Origin: Gluconobacter kondonii
Lineage (GTDB): Bacteria > Pseudomonadota > Alphaproteobacteria > Acetobacterales > Acetobacteraceae
Assembly (NCBI RefSeq): GCF_002723995.1
Contig: NZ_BEWP01000001.1
Span: 124,001 to 188,000 of the forward strand
Length of the DNA: 64,000 nt
Direction of reading: 5' to 3'
Part shown: positions 26,606 to 46,171 of the stretch, in pieces
Layout: every line of letters begins with the position of its first letter
Numbering within the stretch: the stretch's first letter is position 1
Notes under the pieces: generated by a model
Seen by the model: only the letters and a program-made list of their open reading frames with translations
What the model was told of the DNA's origin: nothing
Databases searched by the model: none
Program-made: the position numbers and the translations under genes

Positions 26606-28006
26606 TCAGCCATAGGCCCGCAGAACGGCATCCTGCGACAGAGCCAGCACATGACCGTCACAGACGATCGGCTGAACCTGACACGGGGCAACGGTCTTGC
26701 GGGTTAGTTCAAGTTTCCCGGTCACGGCGTTCACGACCGCCATGCCTTCTTTCGGAAAGGTGGAGAAGCAGACCAGCTTGCCATTCACCAGAAGCGGTCC
26801 CACCCAGGCAATGGCGTCTTTTTCCACATCCACACGGATAAAGCGACGGAGCTGCGTGATCCAGCGGACATGCCCGGACAGACGATCCAGACAGGCGATC
26901 TGCTGATCCGTGGACAGCACATACATCCAGTCGCCACAGATCGCCAGAGGACTCTGTCCGCTGACCTCACGTTCCCACAGGCGGCGGCCCGAACGCATAT
27001 CGATTGCCACCAGCACACGGGACATGGACACAGCATAGGCCGTGCCGTCCTTGATGACCGGCGCGCCCCGGATGCATGAGAAGTCCAGCATGGCGCCCAT
27101 GCCGTTCGTGCCACCCAGACTGTCGCTCCAGACCATCTCGCCAGAAGCGGCACGCAACGCGACCAGATCGCCACTGCCAAAGCCCGCGAGAATCACACCA
27201 TCCACAAAGGCCGGAGCCGACTGGCCGAAAATGACCGTGTCTGCCGCCGTCGCCTGATACGCCCAGACCTGATGGCCCGTATTGGCATTCAGTGCAATCA
27301 GCCGCTCGTCAATGGTTCCGAAGACCATCAGGCCTTCCGCGATCGTGGGAGCGGAACGGCCCGGCGTTCCCGTACTCACGCGCCATTTCACCTTGCCCGT
27401 CAGCGCTTCAACTGCAAGGGCCTGCGCCACGCCATCCACAATGTAGAGGGTGTCCCCGTCAATCGCGAGGCCGCCACCAATATTGGTGGACCGGCTTGCC
27501 GAAGATGCAGGCTGGCGCGTCCAGACAAGGCGACGCCCCGGCCATGTCCAGGCTTTCACAACGCCTTGAGCGTCCGTCGTGTAGAGATGACCATTTCCAA
27601 TCACCGGAGGAGACTGGATGGCGCCACGATTAGTCGGCATGATGGCGATCATGGACAGGAAACTGGATGGGTCGGTCGGCGCACCGATGGTCTGGCTCCA
27701 GGCCAGATCCGGGCCGTTCCAGGCCGCATTCACCGCGACGTGGGACGGACGACCGCCCTCCTGAAGCCATTCCCGAACCGGCTGCACCGGACCGAGATTG
27801 ATCGGCGTATGATCGTCACGATCGACCGTGAGCCCTGCCCCCGTGGACAGCACATCCACACGATGCCCGGCCAGAGGTGGCTTCTTGTCGTCTTCAAACA
27901 GGCTGCATCCGCCAAGAACTGCGAGCGCACTGCCTGAGCAGGCCGTCCGAAGCAGAGCCCTGCGGTTCACGGAGAGAGAAGAGCGGGAAAGAACAGGACG
28001 GCGCAT
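26606..28006 (-). CDS. bamB: Outer-membrane assembly lipoprotein BamB-like (PQQ-type beta-propeller)
   Basis: Lipobox LGGC near residue 34 follows a twin-arginine-like NRRALLRTACSGSALAVL segment. The body holds repeated propeller blades: GVVKAWTWPGRRLVWTRQ, GKVKWRV, GHQVWAYQ, GEMVWSD, GRRLWEREV and GHVRWITQ. As part of the BAM complex it would help insert outer-membrane proteins. ATG 28006 shares its A with the upstream stop (TGATG), which signals coupling to the TPR gene; a TTG one codon earlier is possible. Conserved neighbour of der. Confidence 0.93.
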   Translation of the reverse strand: MRRPVLSRSSLSVNRRALLRTACSGSALAVLGGCSLFEDDKKPPLAGHRVDVLSTGAGLTVDRDDHTPINLGPVQPVREWLQEGGRPSHVAVNAAWNGPDLAWSQTIGAPTDPSSFLSMIAIMPTNRGAIQSPPVIGNGHLYTTDAQGVVKAWTWPGRRLVWTRQPASSASRSTNIGGGLAIDGDTLYIVDGVAQALAVEALTGKVKWRVSTGTPGRSAPTIAEGLMVFGTIDERLIALNANTGHQVWAYQATAADTVIFGQSAPAFVDGVILAGFGSGDLVALRAASGEMVWSDSLGGTNGMGAMLDFSCIRGAPVIKDGTAYAVSMSRVLVAIDMRSGRRLWEREVSGQSPLAICGDWMYVLSTDQQIACLDRLSGHVRWITQLRRFIRVDVEKDAIAWVGPLLVNGKLVCFSTFPKEGMAVVNAVTGKLELTRKTVAPCQVQPIVCDGHVLALSQDAVLRAYG

Positions 28007-28689
28007 CAACCGGCGTCTCCAAATGTCTCAAGCAGGGCCTGTGCACGCGCACGCACCCCTTCGGTCGCGTTTGCACTGCTAACGATCTGGGTCAGGATAC
28101 GCCGGGCTTCCTTCTGCTGGTCGGCCGTCGCACCGGATCGCAGATCCAGCGCCACAAGACCTTCCTGAGCGAGAGGCGCCCATGCTCCACCACCCTGCGC
28201 CAGAGCTTCATAGCCCGAACGGATCGCCTTCGGGTCAGTAGGAGAGGCCGTCTGGGCGTTCAAGCCCATATAGCGCGCCATATCGCGCAGAGACGGTTCG
28301 GCTGCGGAATCATCTGCAACGCTTTTCCATGATTGGAGAGCTGCAGCGTCCTGATGTGCCTGAACCTGAAGATCAGCCAGACGCAGCGCAGCATAGGAGC
28401 GCGCACCCGCAGGGCCGTGCTCCGCCAGATCCTGCAAGGTTGCGGTGGCTTTACTGATGGCCGCAGCGTCCCGCTTCGGATCAGACAGAGCAGCCATGGC
28501 CGTGAAATAGCGTGCCGATGCCGCCTTTTGTGCGACATGACGTGCGTGACTGTTCCAGCCCCATACGCCACCCCCAATGACACTAACGAGCACAACAACG
28601 CCAGCTACAGCACCAATCCGCCGTGCCATGGCCCGCAACCGCTGCGCCTGCATTTCTTCGTCAATCTGCGTGATGAAATCGTCTGCCAC
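28006..28689 (-). CDS. YfgM-like TPR membrane protein
   Basis: Single N-terminal transmembrane segment (about residues 26-46, GAVAGVVVLVSVIGGGVWGW) after a short acidic cytoplasmic leader VADDFITQIDEEMQAQRLR, then an alpha-helical, alanine-rich periplasmic domain with TPR-like helices. This matches the YfgM/TPR_21 family, ancillary to the Sec translocon and periplasmic chaperones. I place the start at GTG 28689 because homologues begin at this ADD-type motif and GGGG lies about eight bases upstream; ATG 28770 would add 27 poorly conserved residues. Coupled to bamB. Confidence 0.82.
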   Translation of the reverse strand: MADDFITQIDEEMQAQRLRAMARRIGAVAGVVVLVSVIGGGVWGWNSHARHVAQKAASARYFTAMAALSDPKRDAAAISKATATLQDLAEHGPAGARSYAALRLADLQVQAHQDAAALQSWKSVADDSAAEPSLRDMARYMGLNAQTASPTDPKAIRSGYEALAQGGGAWAPLAQEGLVALDLRSGATADQQKEARRILTQIVSSANATEGVRARAQALLETFGDAG

Positions 28690-36052: not shown

Positions 36053-36883
36053 CTAGCGCAGGCTCGCCGCCAGAAGGTCGAACGTCGTGTGGTCGGCCTC
36101 AGGGTCAACACCGAACCACGCCCGAAACCCGGCCCTCGCCTGATGGACGAGCATCCCCAGACCATCCACCGTCCGCAGTCCGCGCGCCTGAGCTGCCAAC
36201 ACCAGAGGCGTCTCGCGCGGTGTGTAGACGATATCGGTCACGCACAGCCCCGGTGCAGCCTCTCGCAACGCGGAATCCCAGTCCATGCCGGGCTTGCCCC
36301 CCATCCCCATGGAGGTGGCATTCACCAGAAGCGAACAACCCGACAGCAGGGACGGCCATTCGTACCACGCGACGGCCTCACCGCCGCCAAGGGCCCCGAC
36401 CAGTCCTTCGGCTCGCTCCAGCGTCCGGTTCGTAATCACAACCTCGCAGCCCCGGTCCAGCAGCGCAGCCGCCACGGCCCGCGCTGCACCACCTGCGCCC
36501 AGAATCAGCGCGCGGCCAGCAATCGCGACATCATGCGCGCCCAGATTATCGCAAAATCCCGTTCCGTCCGTGCAGTCACCGATGATCCGTCCCGCCACGA
36601 AACAGATCGTGTTTACGGCTCCCGCCCGTTTGGCGGTCGGAGTGAGTTCGTCACAGGCGCGCATCGCGGCTTCCTTGTGCGGAATCGTGACATTCACGCC
36701 CTGAAAACCCGCTGCTGCGAGCCCGCGCAACGCCTGATCGAACCCTTCAGGCCGCGTTGGCAACGGCACATAGGCGCCATTCACCCCGTTCACCCGGCAC
36801 CAATGGTTATGCATCATGGGAGAGCGCGAATGTTCAACGGGCCATCCCATGACGCCGGCGAGTTTCGTATGCCCGTCAATCAT
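36053..36883 (-). CDS. aroE: Shikimate dehydrogenase
   Basis: NADP-dependent reduction of dehydroshikimate. It has GVMGWPVEHSRSPMMHNHW near the N-terminus, NVTIPHKEAAM with the catalytic lysine, the nucleotide-binding ILGAGGAARAV and the C-terminal GLGMLVHQARAGF. ATG 36883 overlaps the stop of the upstream amidohydrolase by four bases. Length 276 aa is normal. Confidence 0.96.
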   Translation of the reverse strand: MIDGHTKLAGVMGWPVEHSRSPMMHNHWCRVNGVNGAYVPLPTRPEGFDQALRGLAAAGFQGVNVTIPHKEAAMRACDELTPTAKRAGAVNTICFVAGRIIGDCTDGTGFCDNLGAHDVAIAGRALILGAGGAARAVAAALLDRGCEVVITNRTLERAEGLVGALGGGEAVAWYEWPSLLSGCSLLVNATSMGMGGKPGMDWDSALREAAPGLCVTDIVYTPRETPLVLAAQARGLRTVDGLGMLVHQARAGFRAWFGVDPEADHTTFDLLAASLR

Positions 36884-37644
36884 GCTGCCAGCCTTTCCCA
36901 GACTTTCAGCAACAGAAGCGCCAAACGCTCGGCCCATGCCCGCTGCCCCTCTTTTTCAAGGATCAGATCCTGCCGGATTTCGATTTCCAGATAAGGCAGG
37001 CCCGCCGCTTCCGCATGGCGCGGCACCGTGTAGTCGGACGTATCGGTCAGGACGTAAGGCTCGTTATCGCCCACGCACAGCGCACTGTCTTCGCGCAGCA
37101 GATCCAGCGCGATCGACGCCATACGGCTGTCCTGATTGTGCAAAATGCCGATCTGCCACGGGCGGTCTTTCCCGTTCATCTGCGGCGTAAAACTGTGCAG
37201 CGCAATCAGCGCCGTCGGACGCGAACCGCGCTCGGCCAGAACCTCCGCGATCGTGTCATGATACGGATGCAGGATTTCCCGCTCACGCTGCGCCCGGCAA
37301 CTCTCCTGAGCCGCCTGATTAACCGGAACCGGCGTACCATCACTCACACCCGGCATGGAGGTCGGGTGGCCGGGTGCGCGGTTGCAGTCGATCACGAGCC
37401 TTGAATAGACCTGCTCGATCAGCGCCGCGCCCAGCGTTTCATGCAGCACGCGCCCGACACCGACGATGCCGATATCCCAGGCGATGTGCCGGTCCCAGTC
37501 CTCGGTCTGCACCCCCATGTCTCCCAGCGCATCCGGCACCGCCCGCCCTGCGTGATCGCTCACGAATACGAACGGAGACGGTGTCTTTTCAGGAAAAAGA
37601 AGGAAGGGTGCCGGGTCATTGGCGCCAAGAAGGGGAGCAGACAT
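36880..37644 (-). CDS. N-formylglutamate amidohydrolase family protein
   Basis: FGase (PF05013) family, zinc hydrolase of N-formyl-L-glutamate or related formyl amides. Visible motifs are FVSDHAGRAVP, YSRLVIDCNRAPGHP, and ALHSFTPQM. The gene has no histidine-degradation neighbours, so its natural substrate is uncertain. It follows the TlpA-like gene by 16 bp and is coupled to aroE. Confidence 0.88.
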   Translation of the reverse strand: MSAPLLGANDPAPFLLFPEKTPSPFVFVSDHAGRAVPDALGDMGVQTEDWDRHIAWDIGIVGVGRVLHETLGAALIEQVYSRLVIDCNRAPGHPTSMPGVSDGTPVPVNQAAQESCRAQREREILHPYHDTIAEVLAERGSRPTALIALHSFTPQMNGKDRPWQIGILHNQDSRMASIALDLLREDSALCVGDNEPYVLTDTSDYTVPRHAEAAGLPYLEIEIRQDLILEKEGQRAWAERLALLLLKVWERLAA

Positions 37645-37660
37645 CAGGACTTTACTCTTA

Positions 37661-38320
37661 CTATCCAGCCAGAGCCTGCACAGTATGCCTCACAGCGTCC
37701 GCAGACCAGTCCATGTTCCCGATGGATTCCGCCACGACTTCGCCTTTCGCATTCAGGATCAGCGACCGGGGCACGCCATGCAAGGACATGACATTTGGTG
37801 TCAGGCTCTTCAGATCATCCGGGCGCACCTGCTGGATCGATTGGATCAGCGCCGCCTGATCGGCCGTTTCCATCATCACTGCTGAAAGCGGATCGACCAG
37901 GATCGGCAGGGCATCAATGCCGTGGCTGTCATAAAACGCCCTGACCTTTGGAATCGTGCTGCCACGCACAGCGACGGCGACGATCTGCGGTCCCTCGGCG
38001 CCCAACGCCTTGGCCGTTGCATTCACCGAAGGAAGTTCGCGGATGCAGGGCGGGCACCATGTTGCCCAGAAATGCAGGATGAACGGTTTGCCATACCAGT
38101 GCGACAGCGGCACGTCCTGATCCTGCTCGTTCTTCACGCTCAGCGGCGGCAGAACTTTCGGCACAGCCAGTTTACCGAAAGAATTTGGTTCGAAAGCCAG
38201 CCCCTTGCCAGCTTCTTCCTTTGCCGCTGTTGCAGCAATCGCCCGTCCCGAAACCAGAAGGGCACCGGCTCCGCCTAAGAGATGACCCATGAGATGACGG
38301 CGCGTCAGGGGAAAAGTCAT
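37661..38320 (-). CDS. TlpA/ResA-like thioredoxin-fold protein 1
   Basis: Exported thiol-disulfide protein. The N-terminus TRRHLMGHLLGGAGALLVSG is a twin-arginine-like signal peptide with probable cleavage after AIAATA. The active site is FWATWCPPC; the cis-Pro loop is GVPRSLIL near residue 183. It is the last of three adjacent members of this family. The start could be ATG 38320 or 38341; the first has GGA upstream. Likely periplasmic reductant, perhaps for cytochrome c or protein thiols; substrate is not shown. Confidence 0.85.
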   Translation of the reverse strand: MTFPLTRRHLMGHLLGGAGALLVSGRAIAATAAKEEAGKGLAFEPNSFGKLAVPKVLPPLSVKNEQDQDVPLSHWYGKPFILHFWATWCPPCIRELPSVNATAKALGAEGPQIVAVAVRGSTIPKVRAFYDSHGIDALPILVDPLSAVMMETADQAALIQSIQQVRPDDLKSLTPNVMSLHGVPRSLILNAKGEVVAESIGNMDWSADAVRHTVQALAG

Positions 38321-38358
38321 GTTGGAAATCCGTTCTTTCATTTCTACTTTATCGCGTC

Positions 38359-38940
38359 TCAGGCAGTCGTGGCGGCAAGCACCTGATGAAGCACGCCAAC
38401 GGCATCGGAAGCGCCCCAGTCCAACGGACCGGCCGCCGTCGCGCGAATGCGCCCTGCATCATCAATCAGGAATGTTACAGGGATGGCAAGCGCCGCAGCC
38501 CGGTACCAGTCTTTCAGAGCCGTCCCGTCCACTGTCCATGCGGGCAAATCTGCAATGCCGTTTCGACCCAGAAACGCACGAACATCGTCGGGCGATCCAC
38601 TTGAAACCGCGACCGGAACAACAGGGCAATCTGTCCCCCATGCCCGCATGAACCCCACCAAAGCAGGCAGTTCATGACGGCAGGGCGGACACCATGTCGC
38701 CCAGACATGCAGCAGGAAAGGCGCTCCCCGACGCGAGACAAGTGACGAATGCGCACCTTCAGGGCCGGACAGCGAAAGCGTAACGGATTCCGAGACGGGC
38801 CGCCCCGGCATCAGCCGCTCAATCGGCATCCCACGGCGCACAACCGTCCCGGCCAGTTTCGAAGCTCCGACCCCGACCAGAACCGCAAGACCTGCCGTTC
38901 CCAAAACAAGGCTCCGCCGACTGGCCAGCCCACCGCTCAC
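38359..38940 (-). CDS. TlpA/ResA-like thioredoxin-fold protein 2
   Basis: Product of 193 aa: a twin-arginine-like motif SRRSLVLGTAGLAVLVGVG forms an N-terminal signal or anchor, then the domain with WATWCPPC at about residues 80-87 and a cis-Pro loop AIPVTFLI near 153. It starts with GTG that overlaps the stop of TlpA-like 3 (GTGA), so it is coupled to it. The 35 residues after the anchor are likely a linker. Confidence 0.85.
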   Translation of the reverse strand: MSGGLASRRSLVLGTAGLAVLVGVGASKLAGTVVRRGMPIERLMPGRPVSESVTLSLSGPEGAHSSLVSRRGAPFLLHVWATWCPPCRHELPALVGFMRAWGTDCPVVPVAVSSGSPDDVRAFLGRNGIADLPAWTVDGTALKDWYRAAALAIPVTFLIDDAGRIRATAAGPLDWGASDAVGVLHQVLAATTA

Positions 38941-39536
38941 GCGGGCTTGGACGCCTGAAGGCCCGACAGGATCTTTTCAAAAGAGGCCTGACTGTCCGGC
39001 GCGCTCCACGCCATTTCCCCTTCGACACTGGCGCGCAACCGTCCCTGCGAATCAACCACGCAGGTCATGGGAAGGCTTGGCTCGCCGGACGTGAACCATT
39101 GAGAAAACTCATGCTGGTCCAGCGTCCAGGGCGCGATATGCGGCAGATTGCCCTGCGCCAGAAAGATCATCACTTTCGGCAGCGGACTCGCCACGGCGAC
39201 TGGAATGACAGGAATGCTGGCTCCGGTTTTCTCGATGAACGCATTCAGTGCAGGAAGCTCGAGCCTGCACGGCGGGCACCATGTCGCCCAAAGATGCAGA
39301 ATAAAGGGCCGCCCCCTCAACGAGGAGAGTGCCAACATCGTGCCCTCCGGTCCCTTAAGCTGGAAATTCACGGGCTCCAACTTAGGCGCGCCGGGCGCGA
39401 GCGAGGGCAGCACTGGCTGTGCTCCATCCGCCGCGCGGGCGGAATTCCCCAGCCCGCAATTGCAGAGGGAGGCTGCCGCAGCTAGGCTGGCAGCTCCTCC
39501 AAGAAGGGTTCGCCGGTCGATCTGCTTCCGAATCAT
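38937..39536 (-). CDS. TlpA/ResA-like thioredoxin-fold protein 3
   Basis: First gene of the triplet. The N-terminus [18 protein letters not shown] is a twin-arginine-like signal; a Cys pair in CNCG follows but does not fit a lipobox well. Active site WATWCPPC, cis-Pro loop [11 protein letters not shown] 39536 is preferred because it leaves 15 bp to the divergent argH start; an upstream ATG at 39578 would overlap argH. No strong ribosome binding site is visible. Confidence 0.84.
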
Positions 39537-39551
39537 CTGCTTACGGTTATC

Positions 39552-40997
39552 ATGAAAAACGCTCCTGTCGACACACAATCAGATGCCGCCACGTCCTTTG
39601 AAGGCACTGCCGCCAATCCGCAATGGGGTGGCCGCTTTGCCTCAGGCCCTGCCGCCATCATGGGTGAGATCAACGCCTCCATCGGATTTGACAAGATCCT
39701 GTGGCGACAGGACATCCGCGGCTCTCTCGCACACGCTGCCATGCTCCAGAAAGTCGGCCTGCTGACCGAGACGGAACTTGCCGAAATCCGTCAGGGCCTT
39801 GGTGATATCGCGCAGGAAATCGGCGAAGGGCGCTTCGAGTTCTCCCCGGCCCTCGAAGACATCCACATGAACATCGAGGCACGTCTGTCCGAGCGGATTG
39901 GCGAGGCCGGCAAACGCCTGCACACGGCCCGCTCGCGCAACGATCAGGTCGCCACCGATTTTCGCCTCTGGGTCCGCGATGCCATCGACGGCCTTCAGGA
40001 CCAGACCGCCGCCCTGATGCGTTCCCTCGCCACCCGCGCGCTGGAACACGCCGCAACGCCGATGCCCGGCTTCACCCATCTTCAGGTTGCCCAGCCGGTC
40101 ACGTTCGGACATCATCTTCTGGCTTATGTCGAGATGCTGTCGCGCGATCGGGGCCGCCTGCGTGACGCTCGTGCGCGGCTGAACGAATGCCCACTCGGCT
40201 CGGCAGCCCTCGCCGGAACGTCCTTCCCGATCGACCGTCGCATGACGGCTGCAGCGCTGGATTTCGACCGCCCGACCGCCAATTCGCTCGATGCGGTTTC
40301 GGATCGCGATTTCGCGCTCGAATTTCTCTCCGCCCTGTCGCTTCAGGCCATGCATCTGTCGCGGCTGGCGGAAGAAATCGTGATGTGGGCCTCTGCGCCC
40401 TTCGGTTTCGTCACGCTGTCCGATGCCTTCACAACCGGCTCGTCCATCATGCCGCAAAAGCGCAACCCGGACGCCGCCGAACTGGTTCGCGCCAAGATCG
40501 GCCGGATCATGGGCGATTTCGTGGGTCTGCTGACGGTCATGAAGGGTCTGCCGCTCGCCTATGCCAAGGACACGCAGGAAGACAAGGAACCCGTCTTCGA
40601 CGCCACCGAGGCCATGACGCTTTCCCTCGCCGCCATGGACGGCATGATCCGGGACCTCAAGGCCAACGCTTCCCGGATGCGCGAAGTCGCGGGCATGGGC
40701 TTCTCCACGGCCACGGACCTTGCCGACTGGCTGGTCCGCGAACTCCGCGTCCCCTTCCGCACCGCCCATCACGTCACTGGTCGGCTCGTCGGCATGGCGG
40801 AACAGAAAGGCTGCGATCTGGCGGATCTGTCGCTTGGCGAAATGCAGTCCGTCGAACCGCAGATCAACGCGGGCGTTTTCGATGTTCTGACCGTTGAGGC
40901 CTCTCTTGCGTCCCGCACCAGCGAAGGCGGCACCGCACCGGCCAATGTGACGCATCAGGCCAAAGCGTGGCTCGCAAAACTCGGAGAATCCGCATGA
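39552..40997 (+). CDS. argH: Argininosuccinate lyase
   Basis: Last step of arginine synthesis. The superfamily signature [12 protein letters not shown] is near residue 295, with [16 protein letters not shown] and [13 protein letters not shown] before it. Length 481 aa is normal. It is divergent from the tlpA-like gene with only 15 bp between starts, so its promoter must lie within that gene. It overlaps the next gene by four bases. Confidence 0.97.
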
Positions 40998-45983: not shown

Positions 45984-46060
45984 GCACCCGTAGCTCAACT
46001 GGATAGAGCACCAGACTACGAATCTGGGGGTTAGAGGTTCAAGTCCTTTCGGGTGCACCA
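45984..46060 (+). tRNA. tRNA-Arg(ACG), copy 1
   Basis: 77 bases with a 7-bp acceptor stem (GCACCCG with CGGGTGC), the anticodon stem CCAGA/TCTGG with loop CTACGAA giving anticodon ACG, a T loop GTTCAAG and an encoded CCA. The A34 would be deaminated to inosine, so CGU, CGC and CGA are read. Confidence 0.97.
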
Positions 46061-46094: not shown

Positions 46095-46171
46095 GCACCC
46101 GTAGCTCAACTGGATAGAGCACCAGACTACGAATCTGGGGGTTAGAGGTTCAAGTCCTTTCGGGTGCACCA
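46095..46171 (+). tRNA. tRNA-Arg(ACG), copy 2
   Basis: Identical in all 77 bases to copy 1, with a 34-bp spacer between them. Both include CCA. The identity suggests a recent or concerted duplication and higher supply of the tRNA that reads the frequent CGC codon. Confidence 0.97.

Follow-up and report, generated by a model that had tools for sequence, protein, structure and literature searches.

Three tandem, argH-linked TlpA-lineage proteins with conserved twin-arginine N-termini in Gluconobacter

Three consecutive tandem ORFs of Gluconobacter, here called c3, c2 and c1, lie on the minus strand and divergent to argH in the window, the whole stretch of 64,000 nucleotides that was analysed. 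We place them in the argH-linked TlpA lineage of Alphaproteobacteria and not in the rhizobial TlpA equivalog. With slightly better than even confidence, we favor the explanation that their products are periplasmic thiol:disulfide reductases of this lineage that are exported through the Tat pathway, fed by DsbD, and divided in their labor.

Locus layout and family assignment

The genome comprises 63 contigs (3.27 Mb). The TlpA-like protein of c3 (38937..39536, minus strand; 199 aa) begins at ATG 39536, and the longest ORF (39578-38937) extends to a TTG at 39578. The GTG start of c2 (38359..38940, minus strand; 193 aa) at 38940 overlaps the c3 stop, and c1 (37661..38320, minus strand; 219 aa) begins at ATG 38320 within a longest ORF of 226 aa that opens at 38341. 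ATG 39536 and ATG 38320 are conserved in relatives, and these two codons together with GTG 38940 are the likely starts. The c3/c2 overlap of four bases and the 17-base gap between c2 and the c1 ORF suggest that a single transcript is likely. The divergent neighbor argH (39552..40997, plus strand) served as the synteny anchor; its ATG and that of c3 are separated by 15 bases (window 39536-39552), so that each promoter would lie within or very near the opposite gene. Directly 3' of c1 is an N-formylglutamate amidohydrolase-family gene (36880..37644, minus strand), which passed the Pfam FGase model and scored below the hutG cut-off in the profile search; aroE, coaE, and dnaQ follow further downstream, also on the minus strand. 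The best named match of c1, from G. cadivus, is 99% identical to it.

An earlier note on this DNA had described three tandem TlpA/ResA-like proteins with twin arginines near each N-terminus and with different anchors and cis-Pro loops, a description that the present analysis confirmed. All three ORFs encode WATWCPPC (c3, 39267-39290, counted from the sequence; c2, 38680-38703; c1, 38045-38068; all on the minus strand), and all three products scored above the Pfam cut-offs for both Redoxin and AhpC-TSA. In the three-way alignment, the adjacent N-terminal arginine pair (RR) was invariant (minus strand; c3, 39510-39515, counted from the sequence; c2, 38914-38919; c1, 38297-38302), and the cis-Pro loops read HGVPRS in c1, LAIPVT in c2, and PSLPMT in c3. 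Judged by eye, the signals of c3 and c1 look cleavable, at ARA-ADG and AIA-A, respectively; the N-terminus of c2 has a hydrophobic stretch without a clear cleavage site, and c2 is probably N-terminally anchored. The identity to c1 is 36% for c2 and 35% for c3.

The assignment to the argH-linked TlpA lineage is drawn from profile scores, fold matches, and argH synteny. The top NCBIfam model for all three copies was the rhizobial TlpA equivalog NF047696, although none reached its cut-off of 230 bits (69.5, 82.4, and 66.0 bits). This model is narrow, since its cut-off was reached in only 1 of 115 genomes sampled across the class. Bradyrhizobium TlpA was the closest solved relative by sequence for c2 and c3, and c1 matched a Geobacter thioredoxin, then ResA, and then, slightly lower, TlpA. 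Models of c1 and c2, predicted from 38 and 37 sequences, had mean pLDDT values of 78.0 and 86.1, with signal regions below 50. The thioredoxin fold with its CXXC motif and cis-proline was recognized in these two models and, for c3, in the sequence. The first fold match of both predicted structures was TlpA of Bradyrhizobium japonicum (PDB 1jfu; 4txo with ScoI, 4txv with CoxB); the c1 model aligned with 1jfu at Z 18.0 and an rmsd of 2.4 over 154 residues, and ResA chains came next at 16.4. The divergent position beside argH was shared by the window and 16/16 named Gluconobacter loci, an argH-linked TlpA relative was found in 101/118 other Acetobacteraceae genomes, and argH lay within about 1.5 kb of TlpA at 23 of the 30 best loci of the class. 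The copies thus resemble Bradyrhizobium TlpA in class-wide argH synteny and in a WATWC..C active site, and differ from it in their number, the CPPC motif, the RR N-termini, the probable release of two of them, and an insert in c1. Oxidoreductases of the ResA/StoA type have the same fold, and ResA chains ranked high among the c1 matches; however, the copies scored 57.4, 41.0, and 46.7 against a ResA cut-off of 170 (NF002854), and the argH synteny favors TlpA.

The same fold and reductase chemistry are common to TlpA-like proteins, ResA, and CcmG, and the copies could accordingly aid cytochrome c maturation alongside CcmG, given a genome with many c-type dehydrogenases. We regard this as very unlikely. 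The copies scored far under the DsbE/CcmG cut-off (TIGR00385, 123.15; 26.1, 46.8, and 35.2 bits), they lie beside argH and not in a ccm cluster, and the genome has a separate CcmG gene that adjoins CcmF elsewhere. Furthermore, the argH-side TlpA-like gene is absent in 17/118 family genomes, whereas CcmG was found in 96/100. The earlier note had placed the proteins in a setting rich in PQQ and cytochrome c dehydrogenases, and a Pfam scan of 18 window ORFs revealed no such gene; its sole PQQ-type match was BamB-like (26606-28009).

Duplication history, selection, and the insert of c1

Three intact copies were present in 17/26 Gluconobacter genomes. The other nine comprised one with a c3 without active site (G. 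japonicus, L020), one with a broken c1 (L171, G167), six with two copies, and one with a single copy; c1 was not found in L169 (G158) or L170 (G162). In the regions upstream of argH from other Acetobacteraceae (n = 118), 99 had one relative, two had two, and 17 had none, this last count referring to the gene beside argH. Fifteen of these 17 belong to the 38 genomes nearest by argH, for which longer stretches were read. A second copy was fully sought in these 38, two of whose regions are cut off by the end of a contig at about 2 kb; the other 80 regions cover no more than about 1.2 kb on the upstream side of argH.

A tree of 80 rows was built from part of the sequences collected, with CcmG as outgroup. 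All c1 fell in a single clade (support 99/98 versus the other named groups). This clade was joined, at 98/90, by the copy nearest argH from each of G079 and G025 and by the only copy of G048. A second clade (99/98) united all c2 and c3 with additional single or second copies; neither c2 nor c3 was monophyletic in the best tree, and later duplication or exchange among them is possible. A single recent triplication within Gluconobacter was rejected, the one-clade constraint lowering the log-likelihood by 60.04 (p-AU 0.0034). From the tree and the AU test, the triplet goes back to two successive tandem duplications of different age: the split of c1 pre-dates the genus, and that of c2 and c3 came later. 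The tandem triplication of the earlier note therefore holds as regards a shared origin of the copies, unrelated origins not being borne out, but not as a single event. The ancestral argH-linked gene would have been single, as it is in most relatives. Several tree rows are on long branches. The c1-like copy adjoins argH in G079 and G025, whereas c1 of Gluconobacter is the copy farthest from argH, so that either the copies were reordered or part of the grouping is incorrect.

Purifying selection acts on all three copies. Across 13 genomes, the median dN/dS was 0.094 for c1, 0.256 for c2, 0.115 for c3, and 0.031 for argH (pairs retained of 78 at dS 0.05-1.2: c1, 78; c2, 68; c3, 78), and that of the downstream FGase gene was 0.081 (12 genomes). 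The extra copies could be redundant leftovers of tandem duplication that are heading for loss, and the faster evolution of c2, the fastest of the three, would agree with this, as would a copy number that varies from one to three and the broken, missing, or inactive copies described above. We nevertheless consider it unlikely: c1 and c3 have dN/dS values near that of the FGase gene, most of the genomes keep three intact copies, and every intact c1 retains its insert.

This insert of about 25 residues is conserved and lies ahead of the cis-proline of c1 (about residues 159-184 of the 226-aa ORF; 37790..37867, minus strand, limits approximate). From the first active-site Cys to the cis-proline, an alignment of 21 rows showed 69-71 residues in c2, c3, and single-copy relatives (14/15 rows outside the c1 lineage plus the one other c3); the c1-like copies from three other genera had 76-77, and Gluconobacter c1 had 95-96, as did 23/23 intact c1 of the genus. 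The insert was modeled as helical at a pLDDT of about 60-80. The cis-Pro loop of thioredoxins contacts the client, and the insert adjoining it is therefore a candidate specificity element of c1. Given the divergence of the copies round this loop, which is greatest in c1 through the predicted helical insert, c1, c2, and c3 would most likely serve different clients.

Twin-arginine N-termini and the export route

Within the first 16 residues, RR was present in all intact copies of the genus (23/23 c1, 23/23 c2, and 22/22 c3; 68/68), a conservation that suggests more than chance. A stricter Tat pattern, RR.[FGAVML][LITMVF], that of the TatP program, was found in 23/23 c1, 17/23 c2, and 21/22 c3. 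Among the argH-linked TlpA proteins of Acetobacteraceae, RR stood at most five residues before the h-region in 84 of 98 scored ORFs, 69 of which carried the stricter pattern (104 ORFs picked, six left); an earlier scoring of 97 ORFs had given 88 and 67, with four unscored and with L139 and L254 missed by its motif. As tblastn gave 103 relatives, one of the 104 picks (L208 is named) is probably no relative. In 500 shuffles of the n-regions of the family set, RR occurred 17.3 times on average and 31 times at most, under a soft null that does not preserve the clustering of basic residues beside the h-region. For TlpA of other Alphaproteobacteria, RR was found in 4/29 (shuffles give 2.5) and the stricter pattern in 2/29; this set came from the best 30 loci, of which a first scoring covered 14 (two with RR) and a second the 29. 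The median h-region hydrophobicity was 1.78 in the family and 2.51 in the class set (Mann-Whitney p 1.4e-12, relatives treated as independent). The values of the three copies were 1.55 for c1, 2.30 for c2, and 1.53 for c3, compared with 2.31 for CcmG of the same genome.

A TatC gene is encoded in the genome, and c1 and c3 have the conserved RR ahead of a weakly hydrophobic h-region, as in a Tat substrate. Tat export, which the earlier note had read from the twin arginines, is plausible on these grounds and likely for c1 and c3. It is uncertain for c2, because its h-region is about as hydrophobic as that of CcmG and 6/23 orthologues miss the stricter pattern. As RR is common on argH-linked TlpA in Acetobacteraceae, the copies would most likely be exported in folded form through Tat, after which c1 and c3 would be released to the periplasm and c2 retained as an N-terminally anchored form. 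We found no publication on a TlpA-like protein with a Tat signal peptide in a search mostly without subscription literature.

CcmG is usually regarded as a Sec-type anchored protein. As a Sec-type control it failed: RR was present in all 28 scored CcmG proteins of Acetobacteraceae (L178:14002-14556 and L329-L358; 27 with the stricter pattern; median h-region 2.05), a set taken from the best 30 matches and hence from the nearest relatives, with two of the 30 loci not found. N-termini of the same genome were substituted. Among 167 ORFs with mechanical starts, drawn from the window and from ten further stretches of the genome, 41 signal-like N-termini were found (c3 was missed by the filter), of which 13 had RR and five the stricter pattern; without c1 and c2, the counts were 11/39 and 3/39. 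The twin-arginine N-terminus, for which the earlier note had called the triplet unusual, is frequent in argH-linked TlpA and CcmG of this family and uncommon in TlpA elsewhere in the class.

Since RR also occurs in CcmG and in the genome background, it may not mean Tat. The pairs could instead be basic residues of the usual positive-inside kind in Sec signals or anchors, in a genome rich in arginine, with all three proteins exported by Sec, and the h-region of c2 would suit this reading, which we regard as a serious alternative but rather unlikely. In the close relatives L131 and L132 (G118, G032), the single argH-linked TlpA carries KK-IR in place of RR, a replacement that would also favor this reading; a natural return from Tat to Sec is possible. 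Against Sec export of all three copies stand the frequency of the stricter pattern in the family relative to the background (Fisher p 6e-12, relatives treated as independent) and to TlpA of the class, the retention of RR in every intact copy of the genus, and the weakly hydrophobic h-regions of c1 and c3. Tat export thus remains our preferred reading for these two copies.

Partners, possible clients, and significance

The genome has one DsbD-family gene with N-terminal, membrane, and thioredoxin-like domains all present, and this single DsbD could recharge the copies. Each copy would hold a reduced CPPC pair that is recharged by DsbD and reduces the disulfide of a client. An ORF of 238 aa elsewhere (L182:3958-4674) oddly pairs a thioredoxin domain with a pyridine nucleotide-disulphide oxidoreductase dimerisation domain behind it. 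The plus strand of the window has two closely spaced tRNA genes of equal score (45984-46057 and 46095-46168).

Bradyrhizobium TlpA, a protein anchored in the membrane, reduces both ScoI and COX II (PMC6696091), a step that precedes copper insertion. In contrast to the COX II reducer, the present copies occur in a genome in which no CuA oxidase subunit was found, the sole COX2 match being CyoA with no CuA cysteines seen. The COX1 matches in the genome were CyoB and a 414-aa protein (L187:4351-5595), which is much shorter than CyoB and, by eye, lies beside a ctaB-like gene. Three SCO genes are present, one beside a PepSY_TM gene; those at L183:352-1029 and L184:5321-5980 are similar and on different contigs, and the second lies between the PepSY_TM gene and others. 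Our best guess is that the clients are copper thiol proteins of the SCO type, along with other CXXC proteins of the periplasm, and not a CuA subunit. In 35 chosen genomes, compared by inspection alone, the presence or absence of SCO and TlpA showed no clear association: G056 and G066 carry TlpA next to argH but gave no SCO match, and strong SCO matches occur in several genomes that lack the argH-linked gene. No paper on TlpA in Gluconobacter was found in the literature search, which was mostly without subscription literature.

This SCO mismatch counts against the whole explanation, together with RR in CcmG and the background, the fit of c2, and the curated TlpA cut-off that no copy reached. 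A broader speculation, which we consider a long shot, is that the periplasmic CXXC reductases of Acetobacteraceae (argH-linked TlpA and CcmG) shifted collectively to Tat. They would then acquire their fold and their electrons in the cytoplasm and bring DsbD-independent reducing power to the periplasm; Gluconobacter would have three such carriers, with c1 bearing a new helical lid at the active site for its own particular client.

Should the clients turn out to be the usual ones, the triplet would be an ordinary paralogue expansion. On the explanation favored here, the widespread argH neighbor seems to have switched to another export route within a single family and to have multiplied within a single genus. 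If this is true, TlpA would be decoupled from the assembly of CuA oxidase, Gluconobacter would be a tractable genus in which to look for other clients, and the export of a folded, reduced reductase would be a second route of reducing power into the periplasm.
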